15,940 bases of DNA from Acidimicrobiia bacterium. GTDB taxonomy: Bacteria; Actinomycetota; Acidimicrobiia; Acidimicrobiales; AC-14. Position 1 is the stretch's first letter; each line of letters begins with the position of its first letter. The stretch lies in contig JAFAUA010000002.1 in NCBI GenBank assembly GCA_019243595.1, positions 1 to 15,940 on the forward strand, read 5' to 3'. The position numbers and the translations under genes are program-made. This document shows positions 10,508 to 15,940 of the stretch, piece by piece. The notes beneath the pieces are model-generated. The model worked only from the letters and a program-made list of their open reading frames with translations, ran no database searches and was not told the origin of the DNA.

Positions 10508-11064
10508 GCGCACACCTTCACGAGGAAGGGGGCGATCTCGTCGAGCTGGAGCACCCGGTGGTCCTTGCCGGTCGCCAGGGCCGCATCCGGCATCGTCCGT
10601 CGCTCGGCGCTACTCGGCTCCTGCACGATGGTCACGCCGCCCACGTGATGGATCGAGGCCAGGCCTTCCGCCCCGTCGTCACTGGCGCCGGTGAGGATGA
10701 CGCCAACTGCATCCTCGCCGTACGCGCTGGCCACCGACTCGAAGAGGACGTCGATGGACGGACGGCTGAAGCGCACGTAGTCGTCGGTCGACAGGGAGAC
10801 GCTGCCCCGCTCGACCAGCAGGTGGTAGCCGGGGGGTGCCAGGTAGGCCCGCCCCGGTTCCAGCACGTCCTTGTCGGACGCCTCGACGACCGCGAACGCC
10901 GACCGGCGGCCGAGCGTCTCGGCCATGCGGCTGGGGCCACCATCTTCGCGTCGGTGCTGGGCGATGACGACCGGCACCGGGAGGTCGGCCGGCAGGCCCC
11001 GGAGCACGACGCCGACGGCGTGGATGCCGCCCCACGAAGCTCCGACGGCGATGATGCTGCCCAT
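10504..11064 (-). CDS. cheB: Stand-alone CheB-type protein-glutamate methylesterase
   Basis: CheB enzymes remove methyl esters from glutamates (and can deamidate glutamines) of chemoreceptors. The 186-residue protein is only the catalytic domain; the usual N-terminal receiver is absent. The catalytic triad is visible: S10 in VGASWGG, H37 in IAQHR and D130 in TGASDDGAEG. The LAPPGYHLL and SRPSIDVLFES blocks also match the family. ATG at 11064 overlaps the cheR stop as TAATG, and the end overlaps the response regulator by four bases. Without a fused receiver, its activity could be controlled by the separate receiver protein next door, which is inference. No chemoreceptor, cheA or cheW gene is in view, so a chemotaxis role cannot be assumed. 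Confidence 0.92.
   Translation of the reverse strand: MGSIIAVGASWGGIHAVGVVLRGLPADLPVPVVIAQHRREDGGPSRMAETLGRRSAFAVVEASDKDVLEPGRAYLAPPGYHLLVERGSVSLSTDDYVRFSRPSIDVLFESVASAYGEDAVGVILTGASDDGAEGLASIHHVGGVTIVQEPSSAERRTMPDAALATGKDHRVLQLDEIAPFLVKVCA
10515..10519 (-). promoter_or_regulatory. Ribosome binding site of the response regulator
   Basis: GAAGG on the minus strand, inside the end of cheB, lies seven bases before GTG 10507. It decides between the two neighbouring GTG codons. Confidence 0.5.
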
Positions 11065-11909
11065 TACGCGATCTTCCGGTACAGCCGTTCGTCCTCGTCG
11101 ACGGTCTCGTACGCGGCGCTATGACCGGAGAAGTCGATCGACTCCCGAGCGCCCAGTCCGAGGACACCGAAGTGGGCGAGGCTGTCGTACAGGAGCGCGT
11201 GCACCCGCTCGTGTAGATCGCGGTTGAAGTAGATCATGACGTTGCGACACATGATCACGTGAAACTCGTTGAACGAGCGATCTGTTGCCAGGTTGTGCTG
11301 GGCGAAGACGATGTTGTCCGCCAGCGACGGCTGGAACACAACCCGCTCGCCGTCGGCGACGTAGTACTCGGAGAACGAGCGCGTTCCCCCAGCCGCGATG
11401 TAGTTGGCCGTGTACTCACGCATCTTGGCGATCGGATAGGCGCGCGTGCGGGCCTGATTCACCGTCGCCTCGTTCATGTCGGTCGCGTAGATCCGGGTGC
11501 GGTCGTAGAGGCCCGTCTCCTTCAGGAGGATGGCGACCGAGAGCGTCTCTTCGCCAGTGGCGCAGCCGGCGTTCCACACCCGGAGGAACGGGTAGGTCCG
11601 CAGCTGTGGGACGACCTTCTCCCGGAACACACGGAAGAAGCCCGGATCGCGGAACATGGCGCTGACGTTGATCGACAGCTCCGTGAGCAGGCGCTGCAAG
11701 GCGTCGGGGTCGTGGAGCACCCGCTCGAGCAGACCGGTGATGGTGTGGAGACCTTCCGCGTCGACCCGCCGCCAGACGCGCCGTTGGAACGACGGCCGCG
11801 AGTACTGGCGGAAGTCGAAGCCGTACGCCTCGTGGATGCCCTCGGCCAAGAGGTCGAGCTCGACCGCCTCGACATCTCTCCGGCGTACCGGTCGGCGCTC
11901 ATCGGCCAT
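11064..11909 (-). CDS. cheR: CheR-type protein-glutamate methyltransferase
   Basis: CheR transfers methyl groups from S-adenosylmethionine to receptor glutamates. The 281-residue length matches the family. An N-terminal helical domain (about 14-75) contains FRQYSRPSFQRRVWRR; LSINVSAMFRDPGFF (78-92) follows; the SAM-binding motif NAGCATGEE is at 113-121; ATDMNEATV comes next, and HVIMCRNVMIYFN is the conserved late block. It starts at ATG 11909, twenty bases after the large kinase gene and just past a triple 7-base repeat, and its stop overlaps cheB by one base (TAATG). With cheB it forms a complete methylation/demethylation pair. The substrate is unknown; the adjacent poly-HAMP kinase is a candidate. 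Confidence 0.94.
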   Translation of the reverse strand: MADERRPVRRRDVEAVELDLLAEGIHEAYGFDFRQYSRPSFQRRVWRRVDAEGLHTITGLLERVLHDPDALQRLLTELSINVSAMFRDPGFFRVFREKVVPQLRTYPFLRVWNAGCATGEETLSVAILLKETGLYDRTRIYATDMNEATVNQARTRAYPIAKMREYTANYIAAGGTRSFSEYYVADGERVVFQPSLADNIVFAQHNLATDRSFNEFHVIMCRNVMIYFNRDLHERVHALLYDSLAHFGVLGLGARESIDFSGHSAAYETVDEDERLYRKIA

Positions 11910-14900: not shown

Positions 14901-15940
14901 GCCAGCTGGTTCACGTTCTCGGTGAGCCGCTTCCATGTCCCGGCCACACCCTCGACCTCGGCCTGGCCACCGAGGCGCCCTTCGGTACCCACCTCCTTGG
15001 CCACGCGGGTGACCTCGGCCGCGAACGACGACAGCTGGTCGACCATCGTGTTGATGGTGTCCTTGAGCTCGAGGATCTCGCCGCGGGCGTCGACGGTGAT
15101 CTTCTTGGTCAGGTCACCCTTGGCGACTGCGGTCGTGACCTGGGCGATCGAGCGCACCTGGCTGGTGAGGTTGCCGGCCATGAAGTTGACGTTGTCGGTG
15201 AGGTCCTTCCAGGTTCCGCTCACCCCCTTCACGCGCGCCTGACCACCGAGCTTGCCGTCGGTGCCCACCTCGCGGGCCACGCGGGTCACCTCGTCGGCGA
15301 ACGAGGACAGCTGGTCGGTCATGCCGTTGATGGTCTCGGCAAGGGCCGCGACCTCGCCCTTCGCTTCGACGGTGATCTTCTGGGTGAGGTCACCCTTGGC
15401 GACTGCGGTCGTGACCTGGGCGATGTTGCGGACCTGGCTCGTCAGGTTCGACGCCAGGAAGTTCACGTTGTCGGTGAGGTCCTTCCAGGTACCGGACACA
15501 CCGCGCACCTGCGCCTGACCGCCCAGCTTTCCTTCCGTACCCACTTCACGGGCGACTCGAGTGACCTCGTCGGCGAACGAGGAGAGCTGGTCGACCATGA
15601 CGTTGATGGTGTTCTTCAGCTCGAGGATCTCGCCCTTGACGTCCACGGTGATCTTCTGGGTGAGGTCACCCTTGGCGACTGCGGTCGTGACCTGGGCGAT
15701 GTTGCGGACCTGGCCGGTGAGGTTGGACGCCATGAAGTTCACCGAGTCGGTGAGGTCCTTCCACGTACCGGATACGCCCTCGACCTGGGCTTGGCCGCCG
15801 AGCTTTCCTTCTGTACCCACTTCACGGGCGACGCGGGTGACCTCGTCGGCGAACGAGGAGAGCTGGTCGACCATGACGTTGATGGTGTTCTTCAGCTCGA
15901 GGATCTCGCCCTTGACGTCCACGGTGATCTTCTGGGTGAG
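11930..15940 (-). CDS. Large poly-HAMP hybrid histidine kinase (5' end outside window)
   Basis: The frame is open to the right edge (1,336 residues visible), so the true start and any sensor lie outside; the in-frame GTG at 15922 is internal. Parts in order of translation: HAMP array of 92-residue units (15940 to about 14750); GAF domain (about 14680-14240); Glu/Gln-rich coiled coil (about 14235-14000); HisKA with [11 protein letters not shown], phospho-acceptor His codon at 13973-13975; HATPase_c with N-box [15 protein letters not shown] and GGTGLGLSI (about 13670-13290); a Lys/Ala-rich linker; and three receivers (about 13110-12750, 12745-12380, 12305-11935). Receivers 2 and 3 keep the key residues; receiver 1 keeps Asp and Lys but has AE for the acidic pair and Ala for the Thr. 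The HAMP pattern resembles fungal group III (Nik1/Os1) kinases and their bacterial relatives, linked to osmotic and stress sensing. The signal is unknown. No membrane segment is visible in this part. Confidence 0.95.
14837..15940 (-). repeat. Tandem 276-bp repeats encoding 92-residue HAMP units
   Basis: Four units with no insertion or deletion end to end: 15665-15940, 15389-15664, 15113-15388 and 14837-15112, then a fifth partial one to about 14750. Each encodes DLTxxITV, GE-xx-L-xx-xIN, [21 protein letters not shown] and a [14 protein letters not shown] ending. The bases 15561-15664 and 15837-15940 are identical over 104 positions. The array continues past the window edge. Confidence 0.93.

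Follow-up and report, generated by a model that had tools for sequence, protein, structure and literature searches.

The question raised by this locus is what a CheR-type methyltransferase and a CheB-type methylesterase modify when they are encoded behind a poly-HAMP hybrid histidine kinase rather than beside a receptor. The two enzymes are best known for resetting bacterial chemoreceptors. The window, meaning the whole stretch of 15,940 nucleotides analysed here, is the entire contig JAFAUA010000002.1 (C175) of an Acidimicrobiia genome bin (GCA_019243595.1; 3.70 Mb in 597 contigs, 81.5% complete and 1.1% contaminated). It carries a cassette of five genes, all on the minus strand, in the order hybrid kinase, CheR, CheB, receiver protein and REC-HisKA-HATPase protein (REC, receiver domain). 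This cassette likely belongs with the RsbK/RsbM-type systems, as a variant that has CheB and a poly-HAMP kinase, in which CheR would methylate the signalling helix (S-helix) of the kinase, the receiver-less CheB would demethylate it, and the output of the kinase would be set thereby. In Bacillus cereus, RsbM methylates the sensor kinase RsbK in vitro with 14C-S-adenosylmethionine (14C-SAM) and keeps sigmaB off (PMC4574943; this and the other papers cited by PMC number are used through excerpts).

Organisation of the cassette

The features of the cassette are as follows.

11930..15940, minus strand: poly-HAMP/GAF/S-helix/HisKA/HATPase/REC-REC-REC hybrid histidine kinase (Pfam), truncated at the 5' end by the contig edge
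14006..14233, minus strand: kinase S-helix, proposed methylation site, residues about 570-645 of protein P0001
14126..14176, minus strand: three Glu-Glu-Leu motifs with 7-residue spacing, candidate methyl-accepting pairs, kinase residues 589-605
11954..12289, minus strand: third receiver domain (REC3), counterpart of the single receiver in RsbK-type kinases
11064..11909, minus strand: CheR-type protein-glutamate O-methyltransferase of the RsbM clade (PF03705 and PF01739)
10504..11064, minus strand: CheB-type protein-glutamate methylesterase without a receiver, 186 residues (PF01339 only)
9860..10513, minus strand: receiver protein (PF00072) with a conserved two-helix tail, likely a partner of the kinase
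8730..9854, minus strand: REC-HisKA-HATPase protein (Pfam), its receiver of the type found after kinases of this family in other loci

An earlier reading made from the letters of the window (the sequence-only reading) had described this gene order on one strand with TAATG and GTGA overlaps, and the coordinates, the Pfam matches and the sequence bear it out. The kinase stop and the CheR start are separated by 20 nucleotides, CheR and CheB overlap in TAATG, and CheB and the receiver protein overlap in GTGA. The Pfam domains of the kinase comprise HAMP and HAMP_2 repeats, GAF, HisKA, HATPase and three RECs. No methyl-accepting chemotaxis protein (MCP), CheA or CheW was found in the window cassette by Pfam. 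A tandem triplet of CGAGTAG lies at 11916-11936 (minus strand), covering the kinase stop and the spacer to CheR; its period of 7 nucleotides places TAG in all three frames.

Linkage of the kinase, CheR and CheB

Relatives of the window CheR were collected from genome contigs, and the best 80 of 390 were used for locus comparison. These loci belong to Paenibacillus, Neobacillus and other Bacillota, cyanobacteria, Acidimicrobiia, Solirubrobacterales, Planctomycetota, Gemmatimonadetes/Roseisolibacter, Acidobacteria, a Syntrophobacterales bin and a Methylacidiphilales bin. In 76 of the 80, CheR is preceded on its own strand by a kinase of the window type, and the kinase stop is at most 350 nucleotides from the start of the CheR match in 70 of these 76; the cassette gene order is therefore far beyond chance. 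Three of the remaining loci (L030, L045 and L082) start within receivers at a contig edge, and the fourth (L074) has no kinase match in the 1.65 kb upstream of CheR. The nearest REC before CheR, within 1.2 kb, is of the REC3 type in 78/80 loci (59-97% identity), and an MCP-like match occurs in three loci, at least 3 kb from CheR. No window-type kinase was found at the 25 loci of the class Acidimicrobiia, searched with 1.5-kb flanks, around CheRs of at most 33% identity, one of which has CheA. Among 148 genomes of the class, a CheR of the kinase-linked type is present only in the genome of the window, in G138 (57%, gene order identical) and in G125 (43%). The suggestion that the genes constitute one signalling system is supported by this linkage, which is kept across phyla. 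Such cassettes, which the sequence-only reading had thought might exist elsewhere, are thus found in many phyla, and their kind has been studied in part (RsbK/RsbM, cfcABCDE and a note of 2016).

A tblastn search that used the window sequence as query, over as much as 8 kb on each side of every locus, found CheB in 32 loci, with no REC in the CheB frame in any of them; it was not found in 48, namely 47 Bacillota and an Acidobacteria bin (L081). All 47 Bacillota cassettes of the set (within L012-L089) have CheR without CheB in the locus, which points to a gain or a loss of CheB at this division.

The comparison of kinase neighbourhoods across actinobacteria, proposed along with the sequence-only reading, divides the kinases by their receivers. 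As was found by a search of 296 genomes of the actinobacterial phylum, a window-type kinase (E 1e-100 or better) is encoded in 29, the window's own included. Kinases with three RECs have CheR directly downstream in 10 of 10 genomes, and CheB is present at nine of these loci, the tenth ending inside CheR. The other 19 genomes, with 20 loci, have kinases with one or two RECs; no CheR was found in the 0.5-1.1 kb seen downstream of them, nor any CheR above 33% identity genome-wide, while the nine linked genomes searched alongside have one at 44-62%. The CheR-linked actinobacterial kinase frames, apart from one that its contig truncates, are 1188-2186 residues long.

Phylogeny of CheR and CheB and the chemotaxis genes of the genome

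The phylogenetic analysis of 65 CheR sequences, made by a quick method, included the window CheR, those of 30 of the 80 loci, eight further linked actinobacterial ones and 26 chemotaxis or other CheRs. It placed the 39 kinase-linked CheRs on one side of a branch of length 2.0 (Shimodaira-Hasegawa-like approximate likelihood ratio test, SH-aLRT, 99), and the window CheR did not group with chemotaxis CheRs. In the tree of 59 CheBs, 42 linked sequences are likewise separated from 17 others (SH-aLRT 98). Judging by these trees, the CheR and CheB of the cassettes form dedicated clades, separate from those chemotaxis enzymes that were included.

The residues that serve as motifs in the two families, with roles that are general knowledge for these enzymes, are all retained: CheB S10, H37 and D130 in 33/33 sequences, and CheR G115, G119, E121, D144, N206, R222 and N223 in 81/81, the window included in both counts. 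Solved structures align with both window enzymes: those of chemotaxis CheRs with CheR, and that of a CheB named methylesterase/glutaminase with CheB. The linked CheR clade includes L067 (Neobacillus) and L076 (Paenibacillus), which are RsbM-type genes of sigB-type clusters. Their neighbours encode STAS, HATPase_c_2 and sigma-70 proteins and a CHASE3-HAMP-GAF-HisKA-HATPase-REC kinase, with REC-SpoIIE also at L067. This gene set is that of the sigB/rsbY/rsbM/rsbK cluster of B. cereus (gene numbers in PMC12848376).

The absence of MCP, CheA and CheW genes, on which the sequence-only reading had remarked, is true of the window and not of the genome. Contig C103 of the same bin (L007, 7113-15382) encodes one MCP, CheA with two CheW-domain matches, CheW, a CheY-like REC, REC-CheB, CheR and REC-GGDEF. 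The bin, which is incomplete and may hold binning errors, contains two CheRs and two CheBs, one set on C103 and the other in the window; the window CheR and CheB are a second set, distinct from the pair of the chemotaxis operon. Use of the window pair by a chemotaxis operon elsewhere, named beforehand as an observation that would speak against a kinase substrate, was not found, because the C103 operon brings its own CheR and CheB. The REC-GGDEF directly after the C103 CheR suggests an alternative-output chemosensory pathway.

The search for MCPs covered 35 cassette genomes of the 80 loci. MCPsignal is absent in six of them, and the other 29 have MCPs. The MCP-free genomes are listed here.

L010: Acidimicrobiia bin
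L011: Syntrophobacterales bin
L081: Acidobacteria bin
L067: Neobacillus rhizophilus
L068: Neobacillus kokaensis
L084: Neobacillus mesonae (5.8-Mb scaffold)

The CheW domain is absent in all six and CheR is present in all six; three are bins and may be incomplete. CheB is in the locus of L010 and L011 only. The window system as part of chemotaxis was rejected on account of the separate clades, the CheR and CheB of C103 and the cassette genomes without MCP and CheW.

Candidate methylation sites in the S-helix

Aligned by eye, the S-helices of the window kinase and of the RsbK-type kinases of Neobacillus run in register without a gap as far as the HELRTP box. Because of this register and the same receiver type, the S-helix is the most likely target of CheR. 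The poly-HAMP array was tried as a target and is not favoured: a window-like array is present in 22/80 loci, none of them of Bacillota, whereas the GAF-S-helix-kinase-REC3 part is common to the loci.

The Glu-Glu (EE) pairs of the S-helix follow the linkage to CheR. The count of Glu-Glu-Leu (EEL) motifs is 4-6 in nine linked actinobacterial kinases, one further linked locus being left out for want of an S-helix, and 0-2 in 19 of the 20 unlinked ones (Mann-Whitney p = 2.8e-5, kinship not corrected for). At least two EE[L/M] motifs at exact 7-residue spacing occur in 9/9 linked actinobacterial kinases, the window included, and in 4/20 unlinked ones; in the wider set they occur in 64 of 74 linked kinases (the window and 73 loci). 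As a correlate of linkage independent of phylogeny, the EE pairs are suggestive only.

Proposed mechanism and alternatives

It seems that the kinase would sense through its cut-off N-terminus, the poly-HAMP array and the GAF domain. CheR would methylate glutamates of the S-helix, with the Glu-Glu-Leu pairs of residues 589-605 as the most likely sites. CheB, which has no receiver, would take the methyl groups off again, making the modification reversible. Methylation would alter the hold of the S-helix and REC3 on the HisKA core and so set the output of the kinase to separate receiver proteins; by analogy with RsbK, it probably favours the off state. We infer the methylation of the window kinase, the exact residues, the action of CheB on the kinase and the direction of the effect. 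The proposal that the pair acts on the kinase and not on an MCP is supported for CheR by the linkage, the separate clades, the genomes without MCP and CheW and the methylation of RsbK by RsbM; for CheB we infer it. A more far-reaching version, which we put forward tentatively and with somewhat more doubt than belief, is a receptor-free adaptation memory. Here CheR and CheB would reversibly methylate a Glu-Glu ladder on the S-helix of the poly-HAMP kinase and a non-chemotactic system would adapt; the module would have spread through many phyla, and close kinases without CheR and CheB would be without most of the Glu pairs.

Several observations weigh against these proposals. One unlinked kinase (L125) has an EEL count of 4 with all EE pairs, and cyanobacterial three-REC poly-HAMP kinases (L176-L178) keep the pairs with no CheR in at least 4.7 kb downstream. 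Their genomes hold a CheR-linked paralogue elsewhere, and the three kinases are possible substrates of CheR in trans; trans action or common descent would explain the kept pairs. In a tree of 58 kinase domains, the linkage state changes eight times, and only two of the changes are forced by well-supported branches. A sign test of EE pairs against linkage over independent pairs was not significant, such independent pairs being too few. Glu at H-66, which corresponds to E439, the presumed methylated residue of RsbK, was rejected as a methylation marker, being equally conserved in kinases without CheR. The literature searched, in which subscription journals are mostly not covered, yielded no report of methylation of the window kinase or of any CheB-linked relative. 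Deletion of the only CheB of B. cereus left the control of sigmaB unaffected (data not shown by the authors, PMC4574943), and Pseudomonas putida cfc mutants other than cfcA kept the crinkle phenotype according to an unpublished statement of the authors (PMC4951495).

The alternatives concern the substrate of each enzyme. That the two enzymes act on the C103 MCP, their link with the kinase being incidental, would fit the finding of a single MCP with CheA and CheW in the genome, as well as the alignment of the window CheR with chemotaxis CheRs of solved structure. This is nevertheless highly improbable, since the C103 operon encodes its own REC-CheB and CheR, the window enzymes fall into separate clades, six cassette genomes have neither MCP nor CheW, and the kinase linkage holds across phyla. 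It is also improbable, if less strikingly so, that CheR methylates the kinase while CheB works on something else, or converts Gln of the S-helix to Glu by deamidation and so sets up the sites with no reversible adaptation. Such a role would suit the 48/80 loci with CheR and no CheB, 47 of them of Bacillota, the dispensability of CheB in B. cereus (PMC4574943), the abundance of Gln beside Glu in the S-helix and the name methylesterase/glutaminase borne by the solved CheB. It is opposed by the position of CheB directly after CheR with an intact S/H/D triad, and by the Glu residues that are already encoded at the pairs. Demethylation of the S-helix by CheB is preferred.

A further alternative concerns the receiver protein, which the sequence-only reading had proposed as the factor that steers CheB. 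The receiver protein would be phosphorylated by the kinase and would switch the receiver-less CheB, which amounts to the feedback of a REC-CheB in two pieces. The neighbourhood agrees with this in part: a receiver is the next domain after CheB in 29/32 loci, and the window genes overlap in GTGA. Of the other three loci, L070 and L075 have no receiver over some 7 kb past CheB, which argues against the steering, and L056 ends at a contig edge. Moreover, a receiver protein follows the kinase in 14/20 CheR-less actinobacterial loci, and 37 of the 48 CheB-less loci have a receiver at most 1.5 kb after CheR, so the kinase is enough to account for where the receiver lies. It is unlikely that this protein steers CheB. 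The simplest reading of these neighbourhoods is that it would act as an output of the kinase, with no need for such steering.

The receivers after CheR-less kinases are closest to the receiver of the window REC-HisKA-HATPase protein (47-74% identity). The tail of about 90 residues in the window receiver protein (9860-10513) matched no Pfam family above the cut-off, with a loose threshold. In the AlphaFold model (mean predicted local distance difference test, pLDDT, 83) it forms a long helix at residues 119-175 and a second helix at 179-202, and residues N160-E161, I163-V164-Q165-G166, A168-K171 and H199 are kept in 24 sequences. The Foldseek matches listed are mostly receiver domains, EutV and StyR being matched near full length only at a root-mean-square deviation of about 10 Å. 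In the model, the tail looks like a kinase dimerisation hairpin without the ATPase.

Neighbouring genes

No PP2C, anti-sigma or sigmaB output genes were found beside the window cassette, where the downstream genes are those of the receiver proteins and then of aromatic amino acid synthesis, and the 5' side is off the contig. Genes for chorismate mutase, prephenate dehydrogenase and 5-enolpyruvylshikimate-3-phosphate (EPSP) synthase (6051-8708, minus strand) are co-oriented with the cassette and begin 21 nucleotides past the REC-HisKA-HATPase gene. Because of this orientation and the short gap, the signalling genes may be co-transcribed with those for aromatic amino acids.

Comparison with known systems

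The nearest known system is RsbK-RsbM(-RsbY), with which the cassette shares a GAF-S-helix-HisKA-HATPase-REC kinase and, in one operon with it, a CheR-type methyltransferase, which in the window is encoded directly after the kinase. The CheR clade, the REC3 receiver type and the register of the S-helix are also common to both, as judged through Neobacillus and Paenibacillus sequences and not those of B. cereus. RsbK is methylated on the S-helix according to an earlier report of the same authors, and RsbM works together with the RsbK receiver (PMC4574943). The same paper calls RsbM an orphan without a methylesterase and cites 127 RsbK-like kinases in 10 phyla. In the window, by contrast, CheB overlaps the CheR stop. 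The input of RsbK is CHASE3-HAMP with one REC, while the window kinase has a poly-HAMP array and three RECs, and the output of RsbK, a PP2C/sigmaB switch, is not seen beside the window cassette.

The cfcABCDE cluster of P. putida is similar in composition by its gene lists: the hybrid kinase CfcA comes first, and CheR, CheB and the REC protein CfcD complete one five-gene cluster. CfcA is needed for cyclic di-GMP (c-di-GMP) production by CfcR, and the CheB/CheR set is reported to be non-chemotactic (PMC4951495). The differences are that CfcA has a CHASE3/GAF input (PMC6849547) and acts through the c-di-GMP enzyme CfcR. CheR and CheB genes directly downstream of REC-bearing sensor-kinase genes were noted in 2016 outside Beggiatoaceae (PMC5108060); in the excerpt this is a note on neighbourhoods, with no mechanism.

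Streptomyces OsaA is a hybrid kinase, and OsaB is a CheY-type regulator encoded beside it (PMC10117811). Poly-HAMP kinases of group f55, whose genomes measure 7-10 Mb, are 57-63% identical to the window kinase over the matched part, a receiver protein is next to them in 5/9 loci, and no CheR match at all was found in eight f55 genomes. The f55 pairs would correspond to OsaA/OsaB, which resemble the window cassette in having a hybrid kinase with a receiver regulator beside it and differ in the lack of CheR in f55 genomes. Chemotaxis adaptation, where CheR and CheB act on MCPs, has both enzyme families and the catalytic residues in common with the cassette; the window differs in being without MCP, CheA and CheW, in its CheB without a receiver and in the separate clades.

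Kinase methylation by CheR is thus known in kind, and the poly-HAMP input, the three receivers and the dedicated CheB make the window cassette a variant of the RsbK/RsbM kind. Documented methylation of a kinase by CheR amounts to one orphan case without a demethylase, and the CheB-bearing cassettes would supply the missing half. Some of them come from genomes in which no chemoreceptor was found, and the CheR-less sister kinases, most of them with degraded Glu pairs, provide matched controls. The question of whether an ordinary sensor kinase adapts by reversible methylation, raised by the comparison with RsbK/RsbM, becomes directly testable in these cassettes.

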